64,000 nt of DNA from Rhodoligotrophos sp. CJ14 (GTDB lineage Bacteria; Pseudomonadota; Alphaproteobacteria; Rhizobiales; Im1), in assembly GCF_038811545.1 (NCBI RefSeq), contig NZ_CP133319.1, positions 1,674,001 through 1,738,000 of the forward strand. The letters are read 5' to 3'. Below, one piece after another: positions 18,227 to 31,196 of the stretch. The position numbers were made by a program, and so were the translations under genes. A model generated the notes under the pieces. It had not been told where the DNA came from, searched no databases, and saw only the letters and a list, made by a program, of their open reading frames with translations. Positions within the stretch are counted from its first letter, which is position 1. Every line of letters begins with the position of its first letter.

Positions 18227-19114
18227 TCAGCTTGCCTTTGAAAGAGGAATGGTGCTGCCGACTAGAGCGACAAGATCGGCAGGAACTCTAGTGTGGGGCT
18301 GATCTGGCGGCGGCCCAAATACTTCCGAGCGCCATCGTGCCCACTGGGGCCATCTAGCTTCGTCGGTCCCGTACTTGTCTCGATGCTTTAGCCAATATTC
18401 CAGGAGCTTAGGCCAATCTGGGGCGCCGGCATCGTGATTAACCTCTGCTGCCCCCTGGGATGCCGGCCTGTCTAGCCAGCCCTGTCCGGCTAGCCACTTT
18501 GCCGGATATCTTGTGAACTTCGGATCTTGGCCCTTGCGCTCCAGAGCGTAGCGCCTTGCTCCCTCGATAATCGCATCTGGTTCCGCGCCCGCGGCAACCG
18601 CGGCCTCGAATGCCTCTCGCGCTCGCCCCAATTCGATCTGCAACGGATAGGCTTCGATGAACTCCGCGAAAAAATCCCGCGCGCATTTATCTATTTGTTT
18701 GTTCCCTTCCTCTTCCCTTCCCTTCCCTTCCCCTTCCCAATGTGCAGGAATATTCTCGCACATGCATGCACATGCGTCGTATGGTGCCGGTATGGACGAG
18801 GCTGGCTCACGCTGATTGATGTGCTGGTGCTTCCCCCAGCTCGGAATGTGCCCGAACAGCTCTCCGTCAACTTCATACTGTCGGATGAAGCCATGGCACT
18901 CGAGCGCACTAAGCACCTCCCGAAAATCGACATCATCGAAGGGAAGCACATCGAGTTTAAGCACGCGCGGTTGCCAGCGGAAGCGTCCCTCTCTGTCTGC
19001 CACCGTCCAAAGACCGGCAAAGGCGAGGCGCAGGGGCAATCCGCAGGCCACTTCTGCCTCAAACAGTTGCTCGTGGCGAAAGAAGTCCGGCTTGATTGTG
19101 CGGATCCTTGCCAT
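18227..19114 (-). CDS. Phage replication protein, lambda O/DnaD-like N-terminal winged helix
   Basis: 295 residues from the ATG at 19114, which overlaps the DnaA-like stop (TGATG). The N-terminus MARIRTIKPDFFRHEQL followed by LPLRLAFAGLWTVADREGRF and VLSALECHGFIRQYEVDG matches phage replication proteins with a winged-helix domain of the lambda O/DnaD type. A Lys/Glu-rich linker follows, then DPKFTRYPAKWLAGQGW, typical of the C-terminal part of such proteins. With the DnaA-like partner it should start phage DNA replication and load a host helicase. The longest reading starts 159 bases upstream and would overlap the preceding gene. Confidence 0.75.
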   Translation of the reverse strand: MARIRTIKPDFFRHEQLFEAEVACGLPLRLAFAGLWTVADREGRFRWQPRVLKLDVLPFDDVDFREVLSALECHGFIRQYEVDGELFGHIPSWGKHQHINQREPASSIPAPYDACACMCENIPAHWEGEGKGREEEGNKQIDKCARDFFAEFIEAYPLQIELGRAREAFEAAVAAGAEPDAIIEGARRYALERKGQDPKFTRYPAKWLAGQGWLDRPASQGAAEVNHDAGAPDWPKLLEYWLKHRDKYGTDEARWPQWARWRSEVFGPPPDQPHTRVPADLVALVGSTIPLSKAS

Positions 19115-19602
19115 CAGAGGCGTGCCTCCACAGCCTTGATGACATCCGAAAATCTTGCCTTGTCCTCGTCTATCACCTGCACGCTGCGCATTATCGTGGT
19201 GTGATCCTTGCCGCCGAGGAGTTGGCCTATCTTGGGATATGAGAGGTGAGGCGAATGATTGCGGATGAACCACATTGCTATCTGGCGAGCCCGGACAATA
19301 TGCGGGTGGCGCCGAGGCCCCTTCATTTCGCCAACCGTAACCCCCGTCACTTCGGCTACTGCATGGAGGATCTTCTGATGCGGCAGAAGGCGCTCAAATT
19401 CAGGCTCGATGCGGATGGTAGGCGCCCACTCGTGGACAAACGTCCATGTTCCTCGCGTTGATAAGACCAGCTTCGTCTTTTTCTTTGGCTGATCGAATAT
19501 TGACGGGCGTCTTAGGTTGAGCTGACGTGCATAGGTCTCGTGATGGCGCCAGAGTGCCTGTAATGCACTCTTGTTCTGATCATCGAATTCGACTTCACGC
19601 AT
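19114..19602 (-). CDS. Stand-alone DnaA C-terminal (domain IV) DNA-binding protein
   Basis: 162 residues. Residues about 95-142 reproduce DnaA domain IV: RRHPHIVRARQIAMWFIR, LSYPKIGQLLGG and GKDHTTIMRSV, the DnaA-box recognition signature. The preceding 90 residues (TYARQLNLRRPSIFDQ; TIRIEPEFERLL) have no Walker A or B, so the AAA+ ATPase is absent. It therefore binds DnaA-box-like DNA without ATP-driven melting. Next to the lambda O-like protein, it could recruit the initiator to the phage origin or compete with host DnaA. Family recognition is strong; the role is inferred. Confidence 0.88.
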   Translation of the reverse strand: MREVEFDDQNKSALQALWRHHETYARQLNLRRPSIFDQPKKKTKLVLSTRGTWTFVHEWAPTIRIEPEFERLLPHQKILHAVAEVTGVTVGEMKGPRRHPHIVRARQIAMWFIRNHSPHLSYPKIGQLLGGKDHTTIMRSVQVIDEDKARFSDVIKAVEARL

Positions 19603-19864: not shown

Positions 19865-20268
19865 GCCGCGATGCTCCCCATGATGCGCATTGGCTTAATG
19901 GCTCCCCAGCGCGCCAGGATCTCTATAGCCTCATCAAATGAGCGGGCTATCGCATAAGGCGTCTGGTTCTCCATGCACATGCGCTCGAATTCGCGCTGGG
20001 CACCGGTCTGCCGGCCGCGCGGTGACTTGAGCTCGAGGTAGCGCACTCTGCCTCCTGGCATGCTGATCGTCAGGTCTGCCACACCGGCCAGAACACCCAT
20101 GGCTTTGAGCCGGCTTCCGGTGACCTTCGACCGGGCCTCGCCATTCGGGACGTGGTAGAAGAACACACCGCTCTCGCGCCTGAGCTTGAGAGCCTGCACA
20201 ACAGCGCGTTGCAGAGATTCCTCCGCATTGCCGCGCTTCTTCTTCCTGGCGTGAGCATGGAAGGTCAT
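19861..20268 (-). CDS. VRR-NUC domain nuclease
   Basis: 135 residues. The VRR-NUC core reads ESLQRAVVQALKL, FFYHVPNGEARSKVTGSRLK, GVLAGVADLTISMPGG and YLELKSPRGRQTGAQREF. The GVADL acidic residue and the E-L-K motif are the PD-(D/E)XK catalytic pattern. Such stand-alone domains resolve branched DNA, including Holliday junctions, and are frequent in phage replication operons. The Arg/Lys-rich N-terminus (HARKKKRGNAEE) may add DNA affinity. Confidence 0.88.
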   Translation of the reverse strand: MTFHAHARKKKRGNAEESLQRAVVQALKLRRESGVFFYHVPNGEARSKVTGSRLKAMGVLAGVADLTISMPGGRVRYLELKSPRGRQTGAQREFERMCMENQTPYAIARSFDEAIEILARWGAIKPMRIMGSIAA

Positions 20269-20501
20269 GCCCGAGGCTCGATCTCGAATTCGGGATTGGC
20301 GCGAAGTGTCTGGGGCTCAATGCCCGCGAAGAGCGCATCTCCAGAGGGTGCGAGAAAGCCGGCCTCGATCAGGTTGCGCACCACACGCTTATGGAGCTTC
20401 TGCCCTCCAACGGTGGCATACCCGCCGTTGACCAGCACCACGGATCCGTTTCGGCCGATCCTCCTGGCCATGCCCAGTTGGGCGCGAGTGAGCTTTTTCA
20501 C
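20265..20501 (-). CDS. Small phage protein, winged-helix-like, unknown function
   Basis: 78 residues: MKKLTRAQLGMARRIGRNG, then VVLVNGGYATVGGQKLHKRV and VRNLIEAGFLAPSGDALFAG. The helix-helix-strand order with LIEAGFL resembles small winged-helix proteins, so DNA binding is possible but not shown. It overlaps its neighbours on both sides by four bases. Confidence 0.6.
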   Translation of the reverse strand: MKKLTRAQLGMARRIGRNGSVVLVNGGYATVGGQKLHKRVVRNLIEAGFLAPSGDALFAGIEPQTLRANPEFEIEPRA

Positions 20502-20773
20502 TGTCGCCTCCTCTCAACGAAATGCTTGCAGGCATCAGCCGTGGGCGGCACCTTCTCGCCCCTGCGGCCTCTCATGAGTTCCGTGTACTTGCCGCATGGA
20601 GCCGGCTTGACCGGTGCGTCCTTCGGCTTCGGCAAGTATTGGCAATCACGGCACACACGTCCTGCCGGGCCTGTACCCGCCCAAGTCGCCATCCCAGCGT
20701 GAGTGCGCGCGATGCGCAGCGCCTGTTCCGCTTCACGAGGCTCTGTCAGATTGCTGGAGGAGACCAAAGTCAT
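20498..20773 (-). CDS. Small zinc-finger-like phage protein
   Basis: 91 residues. A Cys cluster is visible: RVCRDCQYLPKPKDAP, APCGKYTEL, and a final DACKHFVERR, giving four Cys that could hold one zinc. An A-rich helix (EAEQALRIARTHAG) precedes it. It starts after AAGGAGAAG. Function unknown. Confidence 0.6.
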   Translation of the reverse strand: MTLVSSSNLTEPREAEQALRIARTHAGMATWAGTGPAGRVCRDCQYLPKPKDAPVKPAPCGKYTELMRGRRGEKVPPTADACKHFVERRRQ

Positions 20774-20788
20774 TCCTGGCTCTTCTCC

Positions 20789-21160
20789 TTATTCGCTGAT
20801 TTCCGGCGGAGCCACCGAAGCCACCAGAGCCTCAGCCGCGCGGATAGCACTTGAAGTAGTTGCATCTTCACCAGTCGCCGCCTTGGTGAGTTCGAGTTCG
20901 TGCTTCAGCATCTCGATCTGCCGCTTGGTTTCGGCCTCGTAAGCGGCTTGGAGACGGAGATAGACAGAAGCGATGAGTTTGTTGGGGCGGTAGCGCAGGT
21001 TCCAAAGCGTGCGCTCTGGAAGATCGTATCTGCGCTCCAGGCGCTTCATCGCGCGAGGCAGATCACCCGGCCCCCGTACCTCGCGCTGAATAAGAGAGCG
21101 TGCCCATTCAGCGGCGCGCCCGATCAGCTCTTTGTCTGAGCAGTAAACAACGTCGGACAC
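20789..21160 (-). CDS. Phage helical protein of unknown function, GTG start under repeat control
   Basis: 123 residues from the GTG at 21160: SDVVYCSDKELIGRAAEWAR, then MKRLERRYDLPERTLWNLRY and LIASVYLRLQAAYEAET. I choose the GTG because AGGAG lies six bases upstream, while the longer ATG reading would translate the operator-like repeats. The YDLPERTLWNLRYRP segment looks like a helix-turn-helix found in several phage hypotheticals. The 21-bp repeats begin 11 bases upstream of the start, so expression is probably controlled by a protein binding there. Confidence 0.65.
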   Translation of the reverse strand: MSDVVYCSDKELIGRAAEWARSLIQREVRGPGDLPRAMKRLERRYDLPERTLWNLRYRPNKLIASVYLRLQAAYEAETKRQIEMLKHELELTKAATGEDATTSSAIRAAEALVASVAPPEISE

Positions 21161-21170
21161 GTATCTCTCC

Positions 21171-21219
21171 TGCAAAAGATTTTTGCAGTTCTGCAAAAAC
21201 TTTTTGCGCATTTGCAAAA
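21171..21219. repeat. Tandem 21-bp operator-like repeats, TGCAAAA-N3-TTTTGCA
   Basis: TGCAAAA starts at 21171, 21192 and 21213, exactly 21 bases apart, and its mirror TTTTGC starts at 21181 and 21202, also 21 apart. The first unit is a perfect palindrome TGCAAAA-N3-TTTTGCA, the second is one base off (TTTTGCG) and the third is a half-unit. Twenty-one bases is two helical turns, so bound dimers would sit on one face of the DNA. The array lies between divergent GTG starts at 21160 (minus) and 21261 (plus). Confidence 0.8.
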
Positions 21220-21260
21220 GCTCCCTGGCTACGGTTTGTCGCGTCAGGGAGGTTGATCGC

Positions 21261-21515
21261 GTGTTTTCCAAAGAAGATCGTCACCGCCACGCGAGGACCA
21301 GAACGGAGGTGCAACTCCGGGTCGTCGAAGGTGGCGCGAAATGTGCAGACGAGGTAGACGAGTCTCCGAAGGAGACATTTCGGTCGATCGGGCAGCTGGG
21401 GAGGACGGTGACTGACCCCATCGTTCAGCGATTTGGCTGGCTGATCTGGGAGGGCGGTCTGGCCACACCCGCACGTGGCTGGGCCGCCTCTCCTGATGAG
21501 GAGGGAGGCCATTAG
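21261..21515 (+). CDS. Possible small divergent phage gene, unknown function
   Basis: 84 residues from a GTG with AGGGAGG eight bases upstream: MFSKEDRHRHARTRTEVQL, then PKETFRSIGQLGRTVTDPIV and FGWLIWEGGLATPARGW. The frame is open further up to 21183, but that reading crosses the repeats. It runs against the leftward operon and is divergent from the 20789-21160 gene across the 21-bp repeats. The strong ribosome site and the divergent layout support it; composition does not settle the matter, and the opposite strand is also open. Confidence 0.4.
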   Translation: MFSKEDRHRHARTRTEVQLRVVEGGAKCADEVDESPKETFRSIGQLGRTVTDPIVQRFGWLIWEGGLATPARGWAASPDEEGGH

Positions 21516-22093
21516 GCGGGCTCCCTTTTGCGGTTGCGTTCAGCCAGATATGTCCGGAGTGATTCCGGCATCTCTGGCTCTTCACGAGGTCCAGAAGTGG
21601 TGATGGCGCCTTCCGATTGGCCGCGTGAATGAATACCCCTAGGGGCGCCCGAGCCCCCCGGCACAGCATCAGAAGTTGGTTTGCTCCGATGGCCATCGCA
21701 CCGGCCGCGATCGAGGGTCGGGCCAGATAGTTGCGCCGAGCTTTCATCAGCCCCGCGCTCGGCATGCGGGGAGGCCGGCGCTGTGTACACAGCGCACTGA
21801 TCTAGTATCTCTCCGGTGATGGGATTGATCTCCTCGCGCGCGTCGCGCGTGAGGGCAGAAACATACAGATCTACGAGCTCGTCATGCTCTTCGATCTTGG
21901 CCCGCTCTTCGGCGTCCTCAAGCTTCGCCGTCCTGCGGAATGCGGCACGCAACGCTTTGCCGTCGAAGCCGTGAGCTTTGGCCTCGCTGAAAAGCTCCTT
22001 CAGGTCATCCGATATGGATTGCTTCTCGGTTTCGAGGCGCTGCCATCGATCATAGATGGACCGCAGCAGCTCGTGTGCGCGGGCATCCGTCAT
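21512..22093 (-). CDS. GapR-like (DUF2312) protein with long disordered tail
   Basis: 193 residues. Residues about 1-85 resemble the DUF2312/GapR fold: LRSIYDRWQRLETEKQSISD, LFSEAKAHGFDGKALRAAF and HDELVDLYVSALTRD. GapR is an alphaproteobacterial chromosome-structuring protein that binds overtwisted AT-rich DNA ahead of forks. Here a roughly 100-residue Pro/Gly/Ser-rich tail is added, ending MPESLRTYLAERNRKREPA. It directly follows Cro, so it is an immediate-early product; a role in phage replication or in hijacking the host nucleoid is inferred. Confidence 0.72.
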   Translation of the reverse strand: MTDARAHELLRSIYDRWQRLETEKQSISDDLKELFSEAKAHGFDGKALRAAFRRTAKLEDAEERAKIEEHDELVDLYVSALTRDAREEINPITGEILDQCAVYTAPASPHAERGADESSAQLSGPTLDRGRCDGHRSKPTSDAVPGGSGAPRGIHSRGQSEGAITTSGPREEPEMPESLRTYLAERNRKREPA

Positions 22094-22311
22094 GCCGTCA
22101 CCTCGTCGACGGCGAAGATGTCGGGGCGCAGGTCAGCACGGCTTACAGCGCCTTCAGTCGCGCGCTCAATGCGAATAGCGACTTCAGGCGGCACACCTTT
22201 CTTCGCGCGCATCAGCCAATACCACACCATTGACTGGGTGGTTCCGATCCGATCAGCGAGGGCCTTTTGACCGCCCGCCTGATTGATAGCCTTTATGAGA
22301 GGATTGCTCAT
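22090..22311 (-). CDS. Cro-like (YdaS-type) HTH regulator
   Basis: 73 residues: MSNPLIKAINQAGGQKALAD, then RIGTTQSMVWYWLMRAKKG and VPPEVAIRIERATEGAVSR. This is the YdaS/Cro HTH family, which opposes the repressor at the switch. It is divergent from the CI-like gene and is the first gene of the leftward early operon. The start codon is only about nine bases from the likely -10, so the leader is extremely short. Confidence 0.9.
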   Translation of the reverse strand: MSNPLIKAINQAGGQKALADRIGTTQSMVWYWLMRAKKGVPPEVAIRIERATEGAVSRADLRPDIFAVDEVTA

Positions 22312-22319
22312 GCCCTCTG

Positions 22320-22348
22320 TATTTAACCGATTTATAGGTAAATATCAA
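22320..22348 (-). promoter_or_regulatory. Leftward early promoter (PR-like) before cro
   Basis: Read leftward, TTGATA (22343-22348) and TAAATA (22320-22325) are separated by exactly 17 bases, a good sigma70-type promoter. The cro ATG is at 22311. Two repressor-operator-like sites lie in the spacer and just upstream of the -35. Confidence 0.8.
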
Positions 22349-22361
22349 CCTATTTCTCTGT
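22326..22361. promoter_or_regulatory. Repressor operators at the cro/cI switch
   Basis: Two 14-bp sites, ACCGATTTATAGGT (22326-22339) and ACCTATTTCTCTGT (22348-22361), start 22 bases apart. Both match ACCTA-N4-TAGGT imperfectly. The first fills the spacer of the leftward promoter; the second touches its -35 and ends just upstream of the expected repressor promoter, where bound repressor could activate its own gene as lambda CI does from OR2. Related sites recur at 24587-24623. Confidence 0.7.
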
Positions 22362-22385
22362 AAATGCGTGCTACCAACAATTCGG

Positions 22386-22391
22386 TATCTT
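22386..22391 (+). promoter_or_regulatory. Possible -10 of the repressor promoter, leaderless transcript
   Basis: TATCTT ends six bases before the repressor ATG at 22398, so the transcript would begin at or very near the start codon, as for lambda cI from PRM. No Shine-Dalgarno precedes this ATG. The -35 region (about 22363-22368) is poor, as expected for a promoter needing activation by repressor bound next to it. Confidence 0.5.
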
Positions 22392-22397
22392 GCCCAA

Positions 22398-23216
22398 ATG
22401 GCCACCAACAAAATCACGCCAGAAGGGCTCGCAATCGGCGCCCGCGTCCGGTCTCGTCTTCATGATCTAGGGATCACGCAAGGTGAGCTAGCGACGGCGG
22501 TTGGCATGAAGCAGCAAGGTATCGCCTCGATCTTGGCCGGCCAGGTTAAAAGGCCAAAGAAGCTCTGGGAGCTGGCACGGGCGCTCAAAACTACGGAGGC
22601 ATGGCTTCTGGGCGAGCCGGGAGCGATACCTCCTCAAGATGCGACTGAGCTCCAACGCGTACCCGAAGGCCGGGAATTCGAACCAGACCCTGACTTCGAT
22701 GCCGGATTGGTGGCCACCATCGGAAATGAAACCGGTGCACGTGGAATTCCCACCGATGCCTCACCTGAGATCGATCTGACTGCCGGTCTCGGCGGAGGCG
22801 GTATTAGCATTATCGCTGAGGGCATTCCAGGTAAGCGCGGGATGACTTTCGCGGCGGAGCATATCCGAGATCACTGGCGTCTCCCGCCGCGCCTATTAAC
22901 AGCATTATCAATCCGCGCCCATGACATAGCCATCTTCCCCGTCGAGGGGGACTCTATGGCGCCGACATTGATCGAGGGTGATTATGTTTTCATCGATACC
23001 AGGCACCGTATCCCCTCGCCGGCGGGGCTATACGCCATCATCGATGAGGCGGGAGGTGTCGCGATAAAGCGCCTCGAGGTTTCAAGCCCGCCCGGTGCCG
23101 AAGATCAAACCATTAGGGTCATCTCTGATAATGAGCGTCATAGGCCGAAGGAGTGGCGCGCCGAAGACTTGTTCATCGTCGGCCGCGTTGTTCGCCGCTT
23201 CGGGGTGATTAGGTGA
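22398..23216 (+). CDS. CI-like repressor with HTH and S24/LexA-type autocleavage domain
   Basis: 272 residues from the ATG at 22398 (MATNKITPEGLAIGARV). Residues 11-75 are an XRE-type HTH (LHDLGITQGELATAVG, MKQQGIASILAG). Residues about 175-265 are the S24 domain, with nucleophile Ser186 in EGDSMAPTLIEGDYVFID and Lys224 in GGVAIKRLEV. Ala129-Gly130 in LTAGLGG is a candidate cleavage site. It should hold lysogeny and be inactivated by RecA after DNA damage. An upstream TTG would add ten residues but lacks a ribosome site. Confidence 0.92.
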   Translation: MATNKITPEGLAIGARVRSRLHDLGITQGELATAVGMKQQGIASILAGQVKRPKKLWELARALKTTEAWLLGEPGAIPPQDATELQRVPEGREFEPDPDFDAGLVATIGNETGARGIPTDASPEIDLTAGLGGGGISIIAEGIPGKRGMTFAAEHIRDHWRLPPRLLTALSIRAHDIAIFPVEGDSMAPTLIEGDYVFIDTRHRIPSPAGLYAIIDEAGGVAIKRLEVSSPPGAEDQTIRVISDNERHRPKEWRAEDLFIVGRVVRRFGVIR

Positions 23217-23287
23217 TGCGGGCCGCGTGATCTGGATAGGGCGGAGGGTGTGAGGGAAGACATGGCTGAACAACAGGGCCCTTGGAT

Positions 23288-23596
23288 ATGACCGATCATT
23301 TCGATTTTAGCGATCGACCAGCGCCGACGCAGGCGTATTACCGGGCTGTTGCAGAAAGGCGGAAGGTCGATGTAGATGCCGGGCAGATCGACAGTCTAAT
23401 TGGCCAGCTCTTGCGGGTCCAGTTGGCACTTCTCCAGCTCTACATGGCACAGGCGTTCTCTGACGCCGGATTAAAGGAAGAGGCAAGCTCGCATCGCGAA
23501 GAAGCGCTGAAAGCAATCCATCAATTAAACGCGATGACTCAGACTATGCTCAGCTCCTTCATTCGCCAGTTGGACCAGGGCGACAAGCATGAGTAA
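23288..23596 (+). CDS. Small helical phage protein, unknown function
   Basis: 102 residues (MTDHFDFSDRPAPTQAYY), with a long Leu/Ala-rich helix GQLLRVQLALLQLYMAQ and a helical C-terminus (ALKAIHQLNAMTQTMLSS). It follows the repressor by about 70 bases and overlaps the next gene by eight. An in-frame TTG two codons earlier is less likely. It may be expressed in the lysogen with the repressor. Confidence 0.55.
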   Translation: MTDHFDFSDRPAPTQAYYRAVAERRKVDVDAGQIDSLIGQLLRVQLALLQLYMAQAFSDAGLKEEASSHREEALKAIHQLNAMTQTMLSSFIRQLDQGDKHE

Positions 23597-23957
23597 CATT
23601 ATTGACATGATGGTCCACGTGAACCGCGCCCAGGAAGAGGCGGCTTCTCTGTCGAAGCCCTTGCCGAAAGGCGGCGGGGGTGGCACATTTGGAGGCATGG
23701 AAGCGCGAATTGCCAAGTTGGAAGCATCTGTTGAGAGTATCCAAGGCACCCTTTCGGAGGTGCGTGGATCCGTTCGCTCCCAGCTGGACGTCATTACCGA
23801 AATCCGCGTAGTCCTTGCGCGAATAGACGAGCGTGCGATCAGGACGCACGAGAAGATCGCCGAGCTCCCGTCTAAGTCGTTTCTATTCTGGTCAGGCGTT
23901 GGGCTTCTTGTGTCGATTATAGCGGCGGTTGTGGGCATTATCACGCTGGCACAGTAA
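23589..23957 (+). CDS. Coiled-coil protein with C-terminal membrane anchor
   Basis: 122 residues. A Gly-rich stretch (KGGGGGTFGG) precedes a coiled coil (MEARIAKLEASVESIQGTL, VVLARIDERAIRTHEKI), and the last 25 residues form a membrane helix (FWSGVGLLVSIIAAVVGII). The plan is like XhlA-type or superinfection-exclusion proteins, but I do not claim either. It lies in the repressor transcript before a strong terminator, so it may be made in the lysogen. Confidence 0.65.
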   Translation: MSNIIDMMVHVNRAQEEAASLSKPLPKGGGGGTFGGMEARIAKLEASVESIQGTLSEVRGSVRSQLDVITEIRVVLARIDERAIRTHEKIAELPSKSFLFWSGVGLLVSIIAAVVGIITLAQ

Positions 23958-24006
23958 GACTTACCCTCCGCGCTTTCGATCGAGCAATCCTGTCGAAGAC
24001 TCGCGG

Positions 24007-24028
24007 CCCCGCCTCTGCGGGGTTTTTT
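24007..24028 (+). terminator. Rho-independent terminator after the repressor operon
   Basis: CCCCGC pairs with GCGGGG over a four-base loop and is followed by TTTTTT (24023-24028). It lies about 50 bases after the coiled-coil gene stop and ends the repressor transcript. Confidence 0.88.
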
Positions 24029-24181
24029 GTTGCTCGGAACCGATCCCACCGGATCGCGTTGATTCAGCAACCCGCGCCAGGACGGTTAGACTGGCATTTC
24101 CTTTCTTCTCTGCCACGGGAAGCCACCCGTGGATCACCATGTCGTATCACTCAACTGACCCCGCCTAGGCGGGGTTTTTTT
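24029..24181 (+). ncRNA. Candidate small RNA ending in a second strong terminator
   Basis: No reading frame is convincing here. The plus strand has a hairpin CGATCC-cacc-GGATCG (24041-24056), a seven-base stem CCACGGG/CCCGTGG with a six-base loop (24113-24132) and a terminator ACCCCGCC-ta-GGCGGGGT plus T-run (24158-24181). A terminator this close after the previous one would be redundant unless a transcript starts between them. I could not pick a convincing promoter, so the RNA is tentative. Confidence 0.4.
24158..24181 (+). terminator. Second rho-independent terminator in the 24-kb gap
   Basis: An eight-base stem ACCCCGCC/GGCGGGGT with two loop bases is followed by seven T. This is the strongest hairpin of the three terminators between 24.0 and 24.56 kb. 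Confidence 0.9.
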
Positions 24182-24243
24182 GTTTCCGCACTCACGCTTC
24201 TCCGTTGCTAGCCGTTGCAGCCGGCCAAAGCGCAAGCTAGATG

Positions 24244-24295
24244 ATCCGTTAGCGGATCAGGTTGGTTGCCCCCAAGCTTTGGTCCGCACCAAAGC
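24244..24295. repeat. Two short perfect hairpins in the gene-free stretch
   Basis: TGATCCG-ttag-CGGATCA (about 24243-24260) and GCTTTGGT-ccgc-ACCAAAGC (24276-24295) are exact seven- and eight-base stems with tetraloops. They lie upstream of the ncRNA promoter. They could be part of a further transcript or protein-binding dyads; I see no gene in 24182-24332. Confidence 0.6.
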
Positions 24296-24332
24296 GGCCC
24301 TGCTCGATCCCCGGGTGGGGCCGCACATCCTC

Positions 24333-24360
24333 TTGTGAATACAGAAGCAGACCGTATACT
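24333..24360 (+). promoter_or_regulatory. Promoter of the structured RNA
   Basis: TTGTGA (24333-24338) and TATACT (24355-24360) are spaced by 16 bases. The -10 is one base off consensus. A transcript would start near 24366 and reach the terminator at 24558. Confidence 0.7.
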
Positions 24361-24558
24361 GATCGCGGTGCTGTTGTTTGCCGCTGACTGCACCGATCTC
24401 AGGAACCTCGGTCGCTCCCCGTGACGGCCGAGGTTCCTACCCGCCCTTGGATCCTTCTCCCTCGCTCGCACATTAACAGGGCATATGCGGGAGCCAATCC
24501 CGCGCCTTTTCTAGCGACAACATTGCCCCGTCCCGGTCACATGCGGCGGGGCTTTTTT
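24361..24558 (+). ncRNA. Candidate structured phage non-coding RNA (about 190 nt)
   Basis: The stretch after the TTGTGA/TATACT promoter has no plausible coding frame but is full of pairing. GATC-gc-GGTGC (24361-24371) pairs with GCACCGATC (24390-24398) apart from a two-base bulge. An exact 11-base stem AGGAACCTCGG (24401-24411)/CCGAGGTTCCT (24428-24438) follows, then GCGGGA-gccaa-TCCCGC (24487-24503), and a terminator (24525-24558). It sits between the lysogenic transcript and the rightward early promoter, a place where regulatory RNAs are found in lambda-like phages. I know no matching family. Confidence 0.6.
24525..24558 (+). terminator. Terminator of the structured RNA
   Basis: GCCCCG (24525-24530) pairs with CGGGGC (24547-24552), followed by six T. 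It ends the candidate RNA and lies about 40 bases before the rightward early promoter. Confidence 0.82.
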
Positions 24559-24586
24559 GTTGCCTACGCATCGACGTAGACGTTTT

Positions 24587-24623
24587 ACCTAAATCTCTGT
24601 TGACCTGGTACCTAGATTTAGGT
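24587..24623. promoter_or_regulatory. Repressor operators at the rightward early promoter
   Basis: ACCTAAATCTCTGT (24587-24600) abuts the -35, and the perfect dyad ACCTAGATTTAGGT (24610-24623) fills the spacer. They start 23 bases apart. The first differs in only two positions from the switch site ACCTATTTCTCTGT at 22348-22361. The arrangement relative to -35 and -10 mirrors that at the cro promoter, so the CI-like repressor should silence both. Confidence 0.78.
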
Positions 24624-24628
24624 ATTCT
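24600..24628 (+). promoter_or_regulatory. Rightward early promoter (PL-like)
   Basis: TTGACC (24600-24605) and TATTCT (24623-24628) are spaced by exactly 17 bases, a strong sigma70-type promoter. The first gene starts at 24661 behind AGGAGA. It should drive the rightward early genes through to the integrase. Confidence 0.85.
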
Positions 24629-24660
24629 ATCCCCATCAAGCAGATCGCTAGGAGATGGGG

Positions 24661-24942
24661 ATGAGCAAGGCAATCACGATCGTCGGATACGAGCCCGAGA
24701 CCTACTGTGACCATTGTGGCCGGGCACTCCAACATGGTGTTCGGACCGATACCCTTGGAACGGTCGGGGCCGACTGCCTTAACAAGATGATCGTGGCGGA
24801 CCGCAAGAAGTTCAGCCGCGATGGCAAGCCCGGCGCCTCTTATGTCCGCACGCTTGCCAAACTCCGCGAGCGAGACAGCGACGAGCAGCTCCGCCGCATG
24901 GGCTACGGCCCTTGGCACTTCGTCTTCGGGCTCAGCGCATGA
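24661..24942 (+). CDS. Small treble-clef zinc-finger phage protein
   Basis: 93 residues from the ATG at 24661 (MSKAITIVGYEPETYCDHCG), preferred over an ATG six bases earlier because of spacing from AGGAGA. Cys pairs in YCDHCGRALQHG and VGADCLNKM suggest a zinc site. The C-terminal region has YVRTLAKLRERDSDEQLRRM. It is the first gene after the regulated rightward promoter, hence an immediate-early product. Function unknown. Confidence 0.72.
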   Translation: MSKAITIVGYEPETYCDHCGRALQHGVRTDTLGTVGADCLNKMIVADRKKFSRDGKPGASYVRTLAKLRERDSDEQLRRMGYGPWHFVFGLSA

Positions 24943-25118
24943 GCCCGCAAGACCTCCTCAACGAAGCGAGGGCGCTGGCCGAACAAGGATCCAGCTTCGC
25001 CCGGTTCATTGATCTCGATCGAAAGCACGCAAGCGAAGACATCTTCATGGCATGGGACAAGCTCCAGGCCGCAGCAAAGTGCCTTCAGGAGCTTCAGAAC
25101 CGAGTTCCAGAAGCCTGA
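24939..25118 (+). CDS. Small helical phage protein (59 aa), unknown function
   Basis: 59 residues starting at an ATG overlapping the previous stop (ATGA): MSPQDLLNEARALAEQGSS, with AWDKLQAAAKCLQELQNR at the end. Mostly alpha-helical. No domain recognised. Confidence 0.6.
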   Translation: MSPQDLLNEARALAEQGSSFARFIDLDRKHASEDIFMAWDKLQAAAKCLQELQNRVPEA

Positions 25119-25178
25119 CCCGCTTTCGGCCCTGTCTCGGCAGGGTCGCGACCGGAGCAGATTAATAGGAGCATGGGG

Positions 25179-25451
25179 ATGAGCGGACATACGGCAGAGC
25201 GGGTGAAGCAAGCCTCAAAGCTCTTCGAGCATATGCAGAAGGCGCGCGGAGCGGGCAAGGACTGGTGGGTCGACACGCTTGAAAGGGTCATCGTCCGCGA
25301 GGTCGAGCGGGACAAGCTCATTGCTGAGCTGCGGGAGGCGTTGAAGGAGGCGCGCGACCGCATCGCGCTCAGCATCGGGGATTATGACGAGATACTGGGG
25401 CGCATAGAAGCCGCCATCACCAAAGCCACAGCACGTACGGGAGAGGGATGA
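25179..25451 (+). CDS. Small coiled-coil phage protein, unknown function
   Basis: 90 residues from the ATG at 25179 (MSGHTAERVKQASKLFEHM), including VIVREVERDKLIAELREAL and a helical end. The leader TAGGAG then TGGGGATGAGC is nearly identical to the one before the gene at 24661, suggesting duplication or shared control. An ATG six bases earlier is too close to AGGAG. Confidence 0.6.
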   Translation: MSGHTAERVKQASKLFEHMQKARGAGKDWWVDTLERVIVREVERDKLIAELREALKEARDRIALSIGDYDEILGRIEAAITKATARTGEG

Positions 25452-25759
25452 TGGAGCCGAGGGCTATCGCAAAAGTCATTGGCGCCAATATCCAGCGGCG
25501 CCGAGCAGAGATTGGTCTATCCCTAGATGAAGTCGCAAAGGCTGCCGGTACATCCAAGTCTCACATATGGGCGCTGGAAAAGGGCAGAAGCTCCAATCCG
25601 ACCGTTTGCATGCTTCTACAGATCTGCGCTGCCCTCCGGACCAATCTGAACGATCTGCTCGGCTTCGATGTCTCCGAGCCCCAGTTCACAGCACAAGAGT
25701 TGGAGCTGGTTTCCGCGCATCGCCGGATTTTCGGCCGAGCAAACGAGACCCGGGAATAG
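25448..25759 (+). CDS. XRE-family HTH regulator
   Basis: 103 residues. IGANIQRRRAEIGLSLDEVA, KAAGTSKSHIWALEKGRSSN and ICAALRTNLNDLLGF are a textbook XRE (Cro/CI-type) helix-turn-helix covering about residues 10-75. It overlaps the previous stop by four bases. Being an early gene, it may act as a second regulator of lytic genes. The last 30 residues are not recognised. A six-base stem-loop (CCGGGA/TCCCGG) overlaps its stop codon. Confidence 0.85.
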   Translation: MMEPRAIAKVIGANIQRRRAEIGLSLDEVAKAAGTSKSHIWALEKGRSSNPTVCMLLQICAALRTNLNDLLGFDVSEPQFTAQELELVSAHRRIFGRANETRE

Positions 25760-25879
25760 TCCCGGTAAGGGGCAAGCCTCTCGCCCCATGGAAATGGAGA
25801 GGTTTTCTCAGAGCAAGGAGGAAAGACCGCATATCCGCACATACCGTCGCTGCTCACCCCGCAGCGGAGGGCTCGGCAA

Positions 25880-25945
25880 GTTTTCTTGCCCTGGGCGCAG
25901 GTGCCCCTCACCCCTCTCATTGACCTGCGCCCTAGCCAAGAAAAC
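25880..25945 (+). promoter_or_regulatory. Long leader hairpin with alternative fold upstream of the 25968 gene
   Basis: GTTTTCTTG (25880-25888) pairs with CAAGAAAAC (25937-25945), and inside it GGGCGCAGGT (25893-25902) pairs with ACCTGCGCCC (25923-25932), separated by a four-by-four internal loop. A competing hairpin GGCAAG-tttt-CTTGCC (25875-25890) uses the same left arm. The stem ends about ten bases before the ribosome site (AAGGGA) of the next gene. The 208 bases from 25760 to 25967 hold no supported gene, though one frame is open. Confidence 0.55.
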
Positions 25946-25967
25946 GAACTCCTCAAGGGAGATCACA

Positions 25968-26144
25968 ATGGCGAAGTTTCGCAAAGGCGATCGAGTATCG
26001 ATCGAGGGAACAGTCAAATGGGACGGACCGGCCAAGGACGGTGCAGTCTCCATTGAATTCGACAGCTCCTATGGTGCGGTAACGCTCTACGTGCATGAGA
26101 GCTGGCTGAAGCCCGTGAAGGCCAGGGAGCGGGCCTATGCGTAA
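25968..26144 (+). CDS. Small beta-rich phage protein (58 aa), unknown function
   Basis: 58 residues: MAKFRKGDRVSIEGTVKWDG, then AVSIEFDSSYGAVTLYVHES and a short basic end. The KGDRVSIEGTV start resembles SH3/KOW-like barrels. The ATG is chosen because AAGGGAGA lies upstream. A long hairpin precedes it. It overlaps the next gene by eight bases. Confidence 0.65.
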   Translation: MAKFRKGDRVSIEGTVKWDGPAKDGAVSIEFDSSYGAVTLYVHESWLKPVKARERAYA

Positions 26145-26397
26145 GCACGTGCTTCTAATCCTCAGCGCCGCGCTGGCTGGAGCGATCACCGGAACGTCGC
26201 TGATCGCGTTCGCCCTCGGCAATCCATCACCGAGCTTGAAGCCGATCCTGTCGAAAACAGAGCGGTCGGCGCTCACGGCCAAGTTCCGCATCATCTTCCT
26301 TGATGACGTGATCGAGTTCCAGGTGAACCGTGACCGCAAATACGACTTCCGCGGCAAGGTCCCGGCCTATGTGCGCATCGGCGCGAGGGAGGCGTGA
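26137..26397 (+). CDS. Small secreted or membrane-anchored phage protein, unknown function
   Basis: 86 residues. Residues 1-28 form a signal or anchor segment (MRKHVLLILSAALAGAITGT, SLIAFALGNP). The rest (FRIIFLDDVIEFQVNRDRKY) looks like a small exported domain. The start overlaps the previous gene by eight bases. No family recognised. Confidence 0.55.
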   Translation: MRKHVLLILSAALAGAITGTSLIAFALGNPSPSLKPILSKTERSALTAKFRIIFLDDVIEFQVNRDRKYDFRGKVPAYVRIGAREA

Positions 26398-26400
26398 GCA

Positions 26401-26661
26401 ATGACTGTCATCTTGCCAGACAGGAATCACGTTCCTGATGCTTCCGATCTTCACCAGCAAGTACCCGGGCTAACTCTTCGAGACTGGTTTGCCTGCTTCG
26501 CTATGGCGGGAATGGGTACGTGGATGCCTCCGTATCACCCTGATGGATCGCCTGTGTCGGCTATTCAATGCTTGTGTAACCCGCAAATGCAGCGGGTTAG
26601 GGCAGAGTGGGCCTATTCGCAAGCGGACGCCATGCTCAAAGCGCGGGGGGAAGATCGATGA
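26401..26661 (+). CDS. Small phage protein, LTLRDWFA-type, unknown function
   Basis: 86 residues. The segment GLTLRDWFACFAMAGMG and the later AEWAYSQADAMLKARGE are a pattern common in phage proteins annotated as hypothetical. Two Cys (QCLCNPQ) lie between them. It starts four bases after the previous stop. Confidence 0.68.
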   Translation: MTVILPDRNHVPDASDLHQQVPGLTLRDWFACFAMAGMGTWMPPYHPDGSPVSAIQCLCNPQMQRVRAEWAYSQADAMLKARGEDR

Positions 26662-26957
26662 TCCTCTTCGGACGCGTCTACGAAGCAGAGCCTATCTGCT
26701 CCGAGGTCTGGAGCGAGGATCACAAAATCAGCCTCTATCTGATGGATATCGAGGTTGAGACCTTGCACTTCGATGTCCGGCTCATCCCGGCCTGCGATCC
26801 TGGCACATGGGAAATCGACGGCATCAAGCTTAAGCCCGAGCACAAGCCCGAGATGATGGCACCGCCGCACATGCAACGCGAGCTGATCAACTATGTCCTG
26901 CGAGACCGGGATCAGTTCGAGCTGCTGGATCATGCAGCCGAGGGGCTTTGGTCATGA
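26658..26957 (+). CDS. Small phage protein, unknown function
   Basis: 99 residues from the ATG at 26658, overlapping the previous stop (ATGA): MILFGRVYEAEPICSEVW, ISLYLMDIEVETLHFDVRLI, then EIDGIKLKPEHKPEMMAPP. Beta-rich first half, helical end. A longer reading that starts inside the previous gene is rejected. No domain recognised. Confidence 0.6.
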   Translation: MILFGRVYEAEPICSEVWSEDHKISLYLMDIEVETLHFDVRLIPACDPGTWEIDGIKLKPEHKPEMMAPPHMQRELINYVLRDRDQFELLDHAAEGLWS

Positions 26958-27247
26958 GCGTCCTGGACTCCAAGCACTATGACGGCGGCCAGACCTTCGA
27001 GGAGCTGCTGAAATCCTATGACGCGATAGGCAAGGCCATTGCGCAGGAGAAGTTTGCGCGGCACCGGCTGACGCATCAGACGCGCCTTGAGGCTCATCTG
27101 GACCGGCTCGAAACCCTGTTGGCGAATGACGAGATCCGGCGGCTTTCCCCATCCCGAAACGCCCCTGCCGCCGGCAACTGCCCCACGGTCGCAAACAACG
27201 TGATCGTGGGGCTCTTTCCCGAATACCGCCCCCTATGGAGGGATTGA
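26954..27247 (+). CDS. Small helical phage protein upstream of the recombinase, unknown function
   Basis: 97 residues from the ATG at 26954 (overlap ATGA): MSVLDSKHYDGGQTFEELL, KAIAQEKFARHRLTHQTRL and HLDRLETLLANDEIRRL. Mostly helical. It directly precedes the Sak4-like gene by one base, so it may be a recombination accessory, but that is only context. Confidence 0.55.
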   Translation: MSVLDSKHYDGGQTFEELLKSYDAIGKAIAQEKFARHRLTHQTRLEAHLDRLETLLANDEIRRLSPSRNAPAAGNCPTVANNVIVGLFPEYRPLWRD

Positions 27248-27248
27248 G

Positions 27249-28163
27249 ATGGCACTGAAGATCACTCGGGCATCTGACCCGATCACCGTCGAGCGACTGA
27301 ACACGGTGATCTATGGCCCTCCCGGCCTCGGCAAGACATCGCTTGCATTCACGGCCGAGGCGCCCCTGCTGCTCGACTTCGACAATGGCAGCCACCGCGC
27401 CGCGAACCGCAAAGATGCCGTTCTGGTATCGGATTGGTCTGACGTGGCCGAGATGACGGCCGACGATCTAGAGCCGTTCAAAACGATCATCGTGGATACG
27501 GCCGGCCGGGCTCTCGATGTACTCACAGCCGATATCATCAAGACCAATCCCAAGCTCGGCCGCGGTGGCGCGCTGACCTTGCAGGGCTATGGCGAGCTCA
27601 AGTCTCGCTTCACTTCCTTCCTCAAGCTCCTGAACAGCTTCGGCAAGGACGTGGTGCTGATCGCCCACATGGATGAGCAGCGCAGCGGCGATGACATCGT
27701 AGAGCGCCTGGACGTACAGGGCGGATCGAAGGGCGAGATTTATAAAGCGGCTGATGCGATGGGCCGGCTGGTGTTGGCCAATGGAAAGCGCCGGCTGCTG
27801 TTCTCGCCAACAGACGCTGCCTTCGGCAAGAACCCTGGCCAGCTTGAGCCTCTGCTGGTTCCAGAAACTTCAAGCCCATCCTTTGACGGCTTCCTGGCCA
27901 GCGTCATTCAGCGGATCAAGGACCGTCTGAACGAGATGACGGAAGCCCAGCGCGAAGCCATGGCCGAACAACAGTGGTTCCGCGACACCCTTCCGGAGGT
28001 GGCGGACGCAGATGCGATCAATGCCCTGATTGAGCGCGCAAATGCTGCCGGACCCGCCTGCAAGGTCATGCTGCACAATCGCGCCAAGGAGATCGGGCTG
28101 ATCTTTGACAAGTCCGAAGGCTGCTACGCCGAAAAGCAGAAAGCCGAGAGCGAGGCCGCGTGA
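27249..28163 (+). CDS. Sak4-like RecA-fold ATPase (single-strand annealing recombinase)
   Basis: 304 residues. Walker A is YGPPGLGKTS (about 22-31). TIIVDTAGRALDVLTADI is the Walker B region, and VVLIAHMDEQRSGDD is a further conserved strand. AAA_24/Sak4 proteins are phage single-strand annealing recombinases of RecA-like fold that work with a nuclease and an SSB. The C-terminal 80 residues are helical. The gene is followed immediately by a PD-(D/E)XK nuclease, completing a recombination pair. Confidence 0.88.
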   Translation: MALKITRASDPITVERLNTVIYGPPGLGKTSLAFTAEAPLLLDFDNGSHRAANRKDAVLVSDWSDVAEMTADDLEPFKTIIVDTAGRALDVLTADIIKTNPKLGRGGALTLQGYGELKSRFTSFLKLLNSFGKDVVLIAHMDEQRSGDDIVERLDVQGGSKGEIYKAADAMGRLVLANGKRRLLFSPTDAAFGKNPGQLEPLLVPETSSPSFDGFLASVIQRIKDRLNEMTEAQREAMAEQQWFRDTLPEVADADAINALIERANAAGPACKVMLHNRAKEIGLIFDKSEGCYAEKQKAESEAA

Positions 28164-28747
28164 TGTTGGCCCGGGTTAGCAATATCGAGTCCTTCAGGCG
28201 CTGGCGCGAGAACGAAGACCAGACCGTCGAGGATCTGGTCAGGTTTATCACAACCGATGAGCCCAGCGAAGCCATGTTGGCCGGCACAGCCTTTCACAGG
28301 GCGCTTGAGCTGGCCCAGGACGGTGAGCACCAGCAGCTTTCGGCTAACGGCTACACCTTCATCCTTGGCGATGGGGAACTAGCGCTGCCGGAAATTCGTG
28401 AGCTCCGCGGATATCGACGCTATGGCGCACTCACCGTCACCGGGCAAGTGGATTGCACCATCGGCAAGATGGTGCATGACCACAAGACCACGGCTCGTTT
28501 CGATGCAGAGCGATACCTGACCGGTTGTCAGTGGAAGTTTTATCTCGAGATCTTCGGGGCCGATGAGTTCCGTTGGAACGTGTTCGAGATCAAGGAAGTC
28601 GAGCCTCTGACCTACACCGTATCGGCGCCTCATCGGCTGACAGCCTATCGGTATCCAGAGATGGGAGAGGACTGCGCCCGGCTCGCTGCCGATTACCTCG
28701 ATTTTGCTCGTCGGTTCCTGCCAAACCACAGGAGTGTTGCAGCATGA
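28163..28747 (+). CDS. PD-(D/E)XK exonuclease (AddB/Cas4-like)
   Basis: 194 residues from the ATG at 28163 (overlap TGATG); an in-frame GTG one codon earlier is less likely. The nuclease core is visible: AGTAFHRALELAQ (catalytic His), GQVDCTIGKMVHDHKTT with Asp and the D-x-K, and LTGCQWKFYLEIFG, the QxxxY motif of RecB-like nucleases. It should resect double-stranded ends to make single strands for the Sak4-like annealing protein. Confidence 0.85.
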   Translation: MLARVSNIESFRRWRENEDQTVEDLVRFITTDEPSEAMLAGTAFHRALELAQDGEHQQLSANGYTFILGDGELALPEIRELRGYRRYGALTVTGQVDCTIGKMVHDHKTTARFDAERYLTGCQWKFYLEIFGADEFRWNVFEIKEVEPLTYTVSAPHRLTAYRYPEMGEDCARLAADYLDFARRFLPNHRSVAA

Positions 28748-29199
28748 CCGATGACGCAATCATCCGCGGCACATACTCCGACCTGAAGTTCATCAGGACC
28801 CGGAGCGTGGCGCAGGTGCTGATTGAACTGCCCATCGAGCAAGCCGATGCCTTCGTCAAGGCATTCGGCACGCCACAGCCGGGGAAGGAAATCCATGTCG
28901 CAATCGCGCGACTCAATGAAACAGCGGCACAAACCCGCCCATCCGCTCCGCTTGAAGCGCCGCAGAAATCCCGTACTCGTCGGGCAGCATTCCTGTGCCA
29001 TGATGTTAGGTTTCGCGCCTTCCTAAATGAAACCTATCAAATGAACGTGTCGAATGCAGAAGAAGCCGCTCAGGCCGTCCGGGATTTCTGCGGGGTAAGT
29101 TCGCGACGATACCTCGATTACAACACTGAAGCCTCGTCTCGCTGGGATAGCCTCTATGAGCGCTGGAAAGCGTTCAAGATCATGGAGGGTGTGCGTTGA
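28744..29199 (+). CDS. Phage conserved protein in recombination cluster, unknown function
   Basis: 151 residues from the ATG at 28744 (overlap ATGA): IIRGTYSDLKFIRTRSVAQ, LIELPIEQADAFVKAFGTP, and in the C-terminal part FLCHDVRFRAFLNETYQ. I recall this type of protein in rhizobial phages, next to nuclease and annealing genes, always without an assigned function. The N-terminal half is compact and the C-terminal half helical. A longer frame starting inside the previous gene is rejected. Confidence 0.65.
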   Translation: MTDDAIIRGTYSDLKFIRTRSVAQVLIELPIEQADAFVKAFGTPQPGKEIHVAIARLNETAAQTRPSAPLEAPQKSRTRRAAFLCHDVRFRAFLNETYQMNVSNAEEAAQAVRDFCGVSSRRYLDYNTEASSRWDSLYERWKAFKIMEGVR

Positions 29200-29585
29200 C
29201 CGGCAGATCAGTGCCCGAGTGGATTGGCACCGATGCGGACACGCCAGTTCCGCCGCGAGTGAAACTGCGCGTGTTCGAGCGCGACAACGGCATATGCCAA
29301 CTGTGCAGCCGCAAGATCCGCCCTGGCGATCAATGGGTAACTGACCACACGCTGGCGCTGACCAATGGCGGGGCAAATCGCGAGGCAAACTTGCAGACGA
29401 TCTGCTCGTGGTGCGACCGCAATATCAAGACGCCGGCTGACGTTGCCGAGAAATCGCGGATCTATAAGCGCCGCCTGAACGCTGTTGGCATAGAGCGAAA
29501 GAAGAGCCGGCCAATGCCGGGCAGCCGGCAATCACCGTGGAAAGCCAAGGTTGGCGGCGGCTGGGTCAGGAGGGATGAGGCATGA
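29196..29585 (+). CDS. HNH endonuclease (second copy in prophage)
   Basis: 129 residues from a TTG overlapping the previous stop. The HNH domain is FERDNGICQLCSRKIRPGDQ, WVTDHTLALTNGGANREANL and QTICSWCDRNIKT, with two CxxC pairs and the D-H catalytic site. The C-terminus is basic (RKKSRPMPGSRQSPWKAK). Unlike the packaging HNH at 14.7-15.0 kb, it sits in the recombination cluster, so a role in recombination or homing is possible. Confidence 0.88.
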   Translation: MTGRSVPEWIGTDADTPVPPRVKLRVFERDNGICQLCSRKIRPGDQWVTDHTLALTNGGANREANLQTICSWCDRNIKTPADVAEKSRIYKRRLNAVGIERKKSRPMPGSRQSPWKAKVGGGWVRRDEA

Positions 29586-29857
29586 GCGAGTGGAAGCCGA
29601 TGTCGAGCGCTCCCAAAGATGGCACGCCATTCCTGGCCGAAATACCGGGTCACGGCAGCGACAACATCATCGCCTGGATGAACGGTCTCCTTGATGAGCA
29701 CGGGGATGAGTGTGGCGCTTGGTGCTTCGAGGAAGGCCAAGAGCCCCCGGATTGCTGGACTGATGGAATATGCTGGGCAGTGAACGAGGACGGCAAACCA
29801 TCGGTTAGGCCGACGCGTTGGAAGCCCCTTCCGCCCGCCCGAGACGAAGGAGAATGA
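29582..29857 (+). CDS. DUF551-like phage protein, unknown function
   Basis: 91 residues: MSEWKPMSSAPKDGTPFLAE, then a Cys/Trp-rich centre (GAWCFEEGQEPPDCW) and WAVNEDGKPSVRPTRWKPLP. The SAPKDGTPFL and P-T-R-W-x-P-L-P elements are typical of the DUF551-like family, frequent near phage ends. The start overlaps the HNH stop (ATGA). Confidence 0.75.
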   Translation: MSEWKPMSSAPKDGTPFLAEIPGHGSDNIIAWMNGLLDEHGDECGAWCFEEGQEPPDCWTDGICWAVNEDGKPSVRPTRWKPLPPARDEGE

Positions 29858-29860
29858 TGC

Positions 29861-30166
29861 ATGCGGCGACAGAACTATACCCCTGTCACGCTAGCCGAGG
29901 AATGGGGCTGCTCGGAGCGCCATATCCGGGGTCTCATCGCGAACGGAAAGCTTCGAGCGTTTCGGCTAGGCAGCAAGCTGATTAGGATTCCGCGAGCGGC
30001 GGTGGAGGAATTCGAATGCCGAAACAGCAATATCGAATCGCTCGATATCGAGGAAAATTCGCCCTCGTCTTCTATGACGAGCGAGGAGACAGACACCGTC
30101 ACTCGCTTAACACCGATGACAAGGGCACGGCTGAAAGGATTGCTCCGGCAATCTACGCAGACCTGA
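29861..30166 (+). CDS. Excisionase-like HTH protein overlapping the integrase
   Basis: 101 residues. Residues about 6-55 form a MerR-type HTH_17 domain (YTPVTLAEEWGCSERHIRG, LIANGKLRAFRLGSKLIRI), the kind used by excisionases. The remaining residues are Ser/Glu-rich and lie inside the start of the integrase gene in another frame, so the two share 151 bases. It should direct excision and bias the integrase. Confidence 0.8.
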   Translation: MRRQNYTPVTLAEEWGCSERHIRGLIANGKLRAFRLGSKLIRIPRAAVEEFECRNSNIESLDIEENSPSSSMTSEETDTVTRLTPMTRARLKGLLRQSTQT

Positions 30167-31053
30167 CCCGCCCGAGCGGGCGAGACGTCGAGGCAATCTG
30201 GAAGGCCTATGTGGCCGATCACTCTGGACGCGCGGTCCTAAAAACGATGGAGCATACATGGAAGGCGCTGAAAGATCGCTTCGGCCCGATGGCTCCTGAG
30301 AACATCACCATTGCCGATTGCCGCGCCCATGTCGATGCGCGCCGCAATGCAGGAATAAAGGACGGCACCATTCACACCGAGCTAGGACATCTCCGAATGG
30401 TGCTGCTGTGGGGCGAGAAGCATAAGCTTGTGGACCGGGCGCCGCACATCGAGCGACCGTCCAAACCGAAGCCCAAGGATCTTCATCTGATAAGGCAAGA
30501 GGCGCGTCGGCTGATCGATGCGGCGGATTTCCCGCACGTCAAGCTGTTCATCATCCTGGCCCTGGGCACAGGGGCACGGGCCAGGGCACTCCTTCAGCTG
30601 ACCTGGGATCGCTGCGATTTCGAGCGCGAGAAGATCGACCTGCGCAACCCGGAGATTACGACGCCACACAAGGGTCGGGCTATTGTCCCTATGAACCGGA
30701 TGGTGAAAGCGGCGCTGCTTGAGGCAAAGCGCATGCGGACCAACGATATCTATGTGATCGAATGGGCAGGGAAGCCCATCGAATCAGTCAAGAAAGGATT
30801 AGCCGCGGCGGCCGTCAAAGCCGGGCTCCCGAAAGTCTCGCCTCACATGCTGCGCCACACCGCAGCGGTTCACATGGTCGAGGCCGGCCGGAGCATGGAA
30901 GAGGTCGCGCAATACCTTGGCCACAATGACGTGGAGGTGACGCGCAAGGTCTACGCGCGGTTCAGTCCGAACCACCTTCGCGAGGCTGCTTCAGTGCTTG
31001 AATACGATATTGGTTCACTTGCACCAAAGAGAGCTTCGCAAAATGCTGGCTAA
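30016..31053 (+). CDS. int: Tyrosine-family phage integrase
   Basis: 345 residues. The ATG at 30016 has GGAGG seven bases upstream, inside the excisionase gene. The N-terminal part (RIARYRGKFALVFYDERGD) is an arm-binding-like domain. The catalytic domain has Arg190 in GTGARARALLQLTWD, His277-x-x-Arg280 in SPHMLRHTAAVH, His303 in QYLGHNDVEV and nucleophile Tyr313 in KVYARFSPNH. It ends 14 bases before the tRNA-Val 3' end, so it integrates the phage at that tRNA. Confidence 0.95.
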   Translation: MPKQQYRIARYRGKFALVFYDERGDRHRHSLNTDDKGTAERIAPAIYADLTRPSGRDVEAIWKAYVADHSGRAVLKTMEHTWKALKDRFGPMAPENITIADCRAHVDARRNAGIKDGTIHTELGHLRMVLLWGEKHKLVDRAPHIERPSKPKPKDLHLIRQEARRLIDAADFPHVKLFIILALGTGARARALLQLTWDRCDFEREKIDLRNPEITTPHKGRAIVPMNRMVKAALLEAKRMRTNDIYVIEWAGKPIESVKKGLAAAAVKAGLPKVSPHMLRHTAAVHMVEAGRSMEEVAQYLGHNDVEVTRKVYARFSPNHLREAASVLEYDIGSLAPKRASQNAG

Positions 31054-31067
31054 GTCATTGTTTTTAA

Positions 31068-31142
31068 TGGTGGGCGGTACTGGGATCGAACCAGTGACCC
31101 CTACGATGTCAACGTAGTGCTCTCCCGCTGAGCTAACCGCCC
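31068..31142 (-). tRNA. tRNA-Val(GAC), prophage attachment site
   Basis: Read on the minus strand the cloverleaf is complete: acceptor GGGCGGT/ACCGCCC, D-arm AGCTCAGCGGGAGAGC, anticodon stem CTACG/CGTAG with loop TTGACAT (anticodon GAC, Val), T-arm CTGGTTCGATCCCAG, discriminator A and encoded CCA. Its 3' half faces the prophage and lies directly after the integrase, so the shared att core is probably inside it, and insertion would leave an intact tRNA here. Confidence 0.95.
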
Positions 31143-31167
31143 TGGCTGAACGCCTCTCGGGTGCCCC

Positions 31168-31196
31168 CATATATCGGCAAGAAGCGGGCGATGCAA
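31168..31196 (-). promoter_or_regulatory. Promoter of tRNA-Val
   Basis: Read leftward, TTGCAT (31191-31196) and TATATG (31168-31173) are 17 bases apart, 25 bases upstream of the tRNA 5' end. It keeps the tRNA expressed independently of the prophage. Confidence 0.65.

Follow-up and report, generated by a model that had tools for sequence, protein, structure and literature searches.

In phage lambda, OR2 lies at the -35 element of PR, OR1 in the PR spacer and OR3 over PRM, and the repressor mRNA is leaderless; lambdoid Cro proteins and the repressor use the same sites. Co-crystal structures of the 434 system have revealed that Gln28 and Gln29 read bases A1 and C2 of the operator. In the alphaproteobacterial Rhizobium phage 16-3 (NC_011103), pairs of OL and OR sites are annotated, and the recognition helix is of the Gln-Gln type. 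The locus described here belongs to the early region of a prophage in the window (i.e., the whole 64,000-nucleotide stretch of DNA that was analysed). As in lambdoid phages, its Cro-type and CI-type genes are divergent, with operators between them that they probably share, and a second operator cluster occupies the opposite early promoter beyond the repressor gene. Judged from its sequence, the immunity region is of the ordinary lambda/434 type and has an operator sequence that is new. The sites listed in Table 1 very probably serve the CI-type repressor of this prophage as operators at a PR/PL promoter pair.

The resemblance to 434 (OL657226) extends to several levels. The DNA-binding domains are approx. 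45% identical, with Gln28-Gln29 kept; both systems have 14-bp operators at a spacing of 22-23 bp and three OR sites; at the 434 PL, too, oL2 lies at the -35, and oL1 occupies the spacer and touches the -10; and in 434 a distance of 43.5 bp separates the centre of OR2 from the annotated start of pRM, just as the centre of OR2 here is 43.5 bp upstream of the A of the repressor ATG. However, the 434 half-site is ACAA rather than ACCTA, and helix residues 27, 30, 32 and 33 differ. PR here lies over OR1/OR2 in the manner of lambda, whereas in 434 the PR spacer contains OR2, and OR1 is located past the -10; 434 also has an oL3 and a repressor mRNA leader with a ribosome site, and the Cro-type protein of the present prophage belongs to the YdaS/P22-Cro kind. 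Lambda shares the placement of OR2, OR1 and OR3 and, as is predicted here, the leaderless repressor mRNA, but its operators are 17 bp long and unrelated in sequence, and its repressor is not a close relative. Phage 16-3 differs in its ACAA half-sites, 12-bp OL sites and other spacing, with two sites per side and an OL near the end of the repressor gene.

Table 1. Positions of the regulatory sites and principal genes of the immunity region, numbered within the window.
Feature	Positions	Strand	Remarks
Cro-type regulator, 73 aa	22090-22311	-	first gene of the leftward early operon
PR-like promoter	22320-22348	-	-35 TTGATA (22348-22343)
OR1 ACCGATTTATAGGT	22326-22339	+	within the PR spacer; last base also opens the -10
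OR2 ACCTATTTCTCTGT	22348-22361	+	consensus half shares one base with the PR -35
OR3 ACCAACAATTCGGT	22373-22386	+	over the -10 of PRM
Predicted PRM -10 TATCTT	22386-22391	+	predicted from sequence and the OR2-ATG distance
CI-type repressor, 272 aa	22398-23216	+	Pfam HTH_3 and Peptidase_S24
OL2 ACCTAAATCTCTGT	24587-24600	+	one-base overlap with the PL -35
OL1 ACCTAGATTTAGGT	24610-24623	+	only exact consensus match in the genome; fills the PL spacer
PL-like promoter TTGACC-17-TATTCT	24600-24628	+	called by consensus scan
Rightward early region under PL	24655-31053	+	up to and including the integrase

The sites are 14 bp long, resemble ACCTA-N4-TAGGT and are paired at both promoters. When the sequence was re-read, the four sites of the earlier note were all found at the two promoters where it had placed them, with start-to-start spacings of 22 and 23 bp and a difference of two bases between OR2 and OL2, as it had claimed. 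Its description can be refined in two respects: the upstream site of each pair, which it located correctly, does not abut the -35 but overlaps it by one base, and the OR/OL-like layout that it called complete, although accurate for both pairs, overlooked OR3, which has two mismatches to the consensus (8 of 10 consensus bases) and lies 25 bp from OR2. The cluster to the left of the repressor thus comprises three operators, and the half of OR2 on the PRM side is degenerate (ACAGA). No OL3 was found, the OL of the window consisting of two sites only; three OL operators are not a universal feature, since 16-3 has two.

The leftward promoter had been read as TTGATA-17-TAAATA. Its -35 stands, but the -10 may be TTAAAT (22326-22321, 16-bp spacer) rather than TAAATA (22325-22320, 17-bp spacer). 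In the TTAAAT register, the -10 begins with the last T of the operator, as it also does at PL (where the last T of OL1 opens TATTCT), at PRM (where the last T of OR3 opens TATCTT, followed by six bases and then the repressor ATG) and in relatives, so that with this reading PR, PL and PRM all follow the same rule. Relatives, read by eye, show TTGA-16-TAxxxT at the place of PR and favour this register. The PR -10 is poor in both registers, and a consensus promoter scan did not call PR. The distance from OR2 to the repressor ATG is 49-53 nt in 21 loci, and from this fixed distance we infer that PRM is leaderless and self-activated, with a start predicted at approx. 22398.

The domains and conserved residues of the repressor identify an HTH domain followed by an S24 autocleavage domain; S186, K224 and an Ala-Gly candidate cleavage site (A129-G130) are consistent with a self-cleaving S24 protein. 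In the PDB, the DNA-binding domain matches the repressor (1.9e-8) and the Cro protein (3.6e-8) of 434; it also matches the repressors of 434 and related phages. In 434 numbering, its recognition helix reads K27 Q28 Q29 G30 I31 A32 S33, compared with T27 Q28 Q29 S30 I31 E32 Q33 in 434, the half-site of which is ACAA. Bases A1 and C2 of the half-site here are as in 434, whereas bases 3 and 4 differ. The domain is thus of the 434 type, both in its similarity to R1-69 and in the occurrence of Gln28/Gln29 together with A1 and C2; the half-site is ACCTA and not ACAA, and the immunity specificity would differ from that of 434 and from that of another prophage that the genome contains. In this second prophage (L023, genome position 3566301, minus strand, and genome 3565414-3565450), a repressor of the same DNA-binding family is accompanied by an OR and OL of its own with the half-site ACCAA; the two 434-type prophages of this host are apparently heteroimmune.

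Loci with related DNA-binding domains were collected from viral contigs and genomes, and about twenty loci with similar domains have the same layout. Their upstream regions contain paired 14-bp sites in the same place, mostly 21-23 bp apart, and unsupervised pair searches of related loci likewise returned AC..GT pairs at a spacing of 21-23 bp, located close upstream of the repressor gene. The half-sites include ACCTA (L018/L019), ACCGA (L040/L045, L062-L064), AC[CT]AA (L022/L023/L030/L055/L058), ACAAA (L036/L065) and ATCA (L059). A downstream TTGA-anchored OL pair is present in 13 relatives and the window, with OL2 running into the TTGA and, in most of them, OL1 running into a TA... -10; a search of 4 kb in L020 found no OL pair. 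OL2 is symmetric in most relatives, and the idea that all of them have a degenerate OL2 was therefore given up. A third site equivalent to OR3 occurs in L018, L019, L030, L058, L020 and L055. OR and OL half-sites agree far better within than between loci (0 of 20,000 permutations equalled this), and this holds when only one locus per helix type is kept (again 0 of 20,000). At an E-value of 1e-10, a class-wide search with the DNA-binding domain returned only the organism's own genome. More distant HTH loci (L060, L066-L068, L078, L081, L083) had no paired sites above shuffles and are outside the family.

A different group of repressors (L016, L024-L029) resembles that of the window in the C-terminal half (44-62% identical) but has unrelated DNA-binding domains, and it seems clear from such sequences that prophage repressors swap these domains. 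Upstream of nine C-terminal-domain homologues with other HTHs, no strong match to ACCTA-N4-TAGGT was found; the best match had 6 of 10 bases in seven of them, 7 in L026 and 8 in L028. Since relatives in the C-terminal domain only are without the sites, the operators follow the DNA-binding domain.

It might be argued that such sites are palindrome-like, AT-rich promoter DNA that arose by chance, and degenerate single sites are indeed common: 20 sites with at most one mismatch occur in the genome, and the consensus with up to three mismatches has 100 matches in the window, compared with 74 expected. A single site is therefore little proof, and it is the arrangement that is rare. The exact consensus occurs once in the 4.81-Mb genome, which was searched by pattern, the paired form being two ACNNANNNNTNNGT sites with a fixed gap. 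With an 8-bp gap, paired ACNNANNNNTNNGT occurs once, at OR; with a 9-bp gap, it occurs three times, at OL, at the pair of the second prophage (approx. 0.9 kb from the DNA-binding domain of its repressor) and at a palindrome of a TetR gene. This last pair, at 677292, was dropped because of its position directly upstream of a TetR-type gene. The prediction that a genome-wide scan would give very few other hits is thus borne out for the exact and paired motifs but not for single sites with one mismatch. The best OR pair score was matched in 0 of 1000 shuffles and the OL score in 1 of 1000, and in the 4 kb that follow the repressor, the TTGA-anchored pair has a score of 18, compared with a maximum of 17 in 500 mononucleotide shuffles. 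When OR alone was searched blindly for pairs, the best score fell 4 bp out of register (ATTTA..TAAAT); the choice of the ACC..GGT register at OR therefore depends on OL and the relatives. Given the pair statistics, the genome scan and the conservation in independent relatives, chance is hardly credible as an explanation.

The sites might instead serve primarily the Cro-type (YdaS-like) protein, with the repressor bound to other sequences. The cro gene adjoins OR1, and lambdoid Cro proteins are known to bind the sites of the repressor; however, the half-site changes with the recognition helix of the repressor, whereas many of the neighbouring Cro helices are very similar (GTTQ..VWYWL) across ACCTA, AC[CT]AA and ACCAA loci. 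This makes a primary role for Cro very unlikely, and Cro probably shares the sites of the repressor. It is more improbable still that the sites belong to a host regulator or to the repressor of another prophage: the genome does contain a second 434-like prophage repressor, but that repressor has an OR and OL of its own with a different half-site, and the present motif is nearly confined to the immunity region. The proposal of the earlier note that these are operators of the CI-like repressor accords best with the 434-like domain, the tracking of sites with that domain, the layout of the relatives and the near-uniqueness of the motif.

From sites whose positions, geometry, conservation and link to the DNA-binding domain emerge from sequence and comparison, a switch may be proposed. 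In the lysogen, repressor dimers on OR1 and OR2 would block the leftward promoter, and with it cro and the genes behind it, while repressor on OL1 and OL2 would block the rightward early promoter of the recombination, excision and integration genes. Repressor at OR2 would activate PRM, the promoter of its own gene, with a transcript that probably begins at the ATG, and excess repressor would fill OR3 and switch PRM off. Upon DNA damage, S24 self-cleavage would free the operators. We infer binding, induction and the use of the same sites by Cro from this arrangement; for activation of PRM and cooperative operator binding, geometry is the basis.

The series of relatives suggests that half-site bases vary with residues of the recognition helix, most clearly for Gln29 and C2. 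Where residue 29 is Gln, base 2 is always C, and the two types without Gln29 have T (Fisher 0.006); of the 11 types with Gly30, 10 have a pyrimidine as base 3, and of the 8 others, 7 have A (Fisher 0.001), these tables having been counted by hand and the Fisher values ignoring relatedness. Phage 16-3, which was annotated independently, fits with its helix SQQAINN and ACAA operators. If the half-site covaries with the helix, immunity specificity could be read from sequence.

The degenerate PRM-side half of OR2 is also common to most close relatives. Base 3 of this half is A in 10 of 17 loci with a pyrimidine consensus at that position, as opposed to 1 of 51 other OR1/OR2 halves (Fisher 7e-7, from a count by hand that ignores relatedness); in the ACCG group, OR2 is symmetric and without a degenerate half. 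The ACAGA/ACAAA half is kept though the consensus half changes, which suggests selection on OR2 for something beyond tight binding, e.g., self-activation or cooperative filling. PMC3317979 cites previous studies of 434 that deal with the sequence of the binding site and with positive control. On balance, it seems slightly more probable than not that there is a broad set of 434-type prophage switches, many of them alphaproteobacterial, with one fixed layout, half-sites that covary with the helix (residue 29 with base 2, 27/30 with base 3 and 32/33 with base 4) and a degenerate OR2 half kept under selection.

Several other features of the prophage deserve mention. The Cro-type regulator matches Pfam YdaS_toxin (3.7e-22) and P22_Cro (1.7e-7) and PHROG 35, a transcriptional repressor. 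It is immediately followed in the leftward early operon by a GapR-like DNA-binding protein (21512-22093; PF10073, 1.7e-16), and the same operon encodes a DnaA C-terminal DNA-binding domain without the ATPase part (19114-19602; PF08299). Directly behind the repressor, in the position of lambda rexAB, are two small genes (23282-23957), the second with a C-terminal membrane segment; they belong to PHROGs of unknown function and are candidates for exclusion genes expressed in lysogeny. Between the repressor operon and PL (24000-24560) lie approx. 600 bp without a clear gene, containing at least three terminator-like hairpins (24005-24030, 24157-24182 and about 24520-24558); near 24400-24437 there is also a long hairpin, AGGAACCTCGG..CCGAGGTTCCT. 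Small RNAs are possible in this region; an Rfam scan of 20000-32000 returned tRNA only, with no match for the hairpins. The rightward early region encodes an AAA_24 protein, a putative exonuclease, an excisionase-like HTH protein and the integrase (30016-31053), as well as another small XRE-type regulator (25448-25759). The end of the integrase gene adjoins tRNA-Val (31068-31142), and a search of the window for att repeats of 14 bp or more matching the end of the tRNA-Val found none.

The kind of switch described here is well known. What is new is its recognition sequence, which in some twenty relatives shifts with the DNA-reading helix; the covariation of helix and operator across relatives and the conserved degenerate half of OR2 were not expected. 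The locus offers five operator positions that can be tested together in a previously undescribed immunity system. Furthermore, it forms part of a natural series of related repressors and their operators, which bears on the old question of predicting helix-turn-helix specificity from the recognition helix and would help to sort prophages into superinfection immunity groups.
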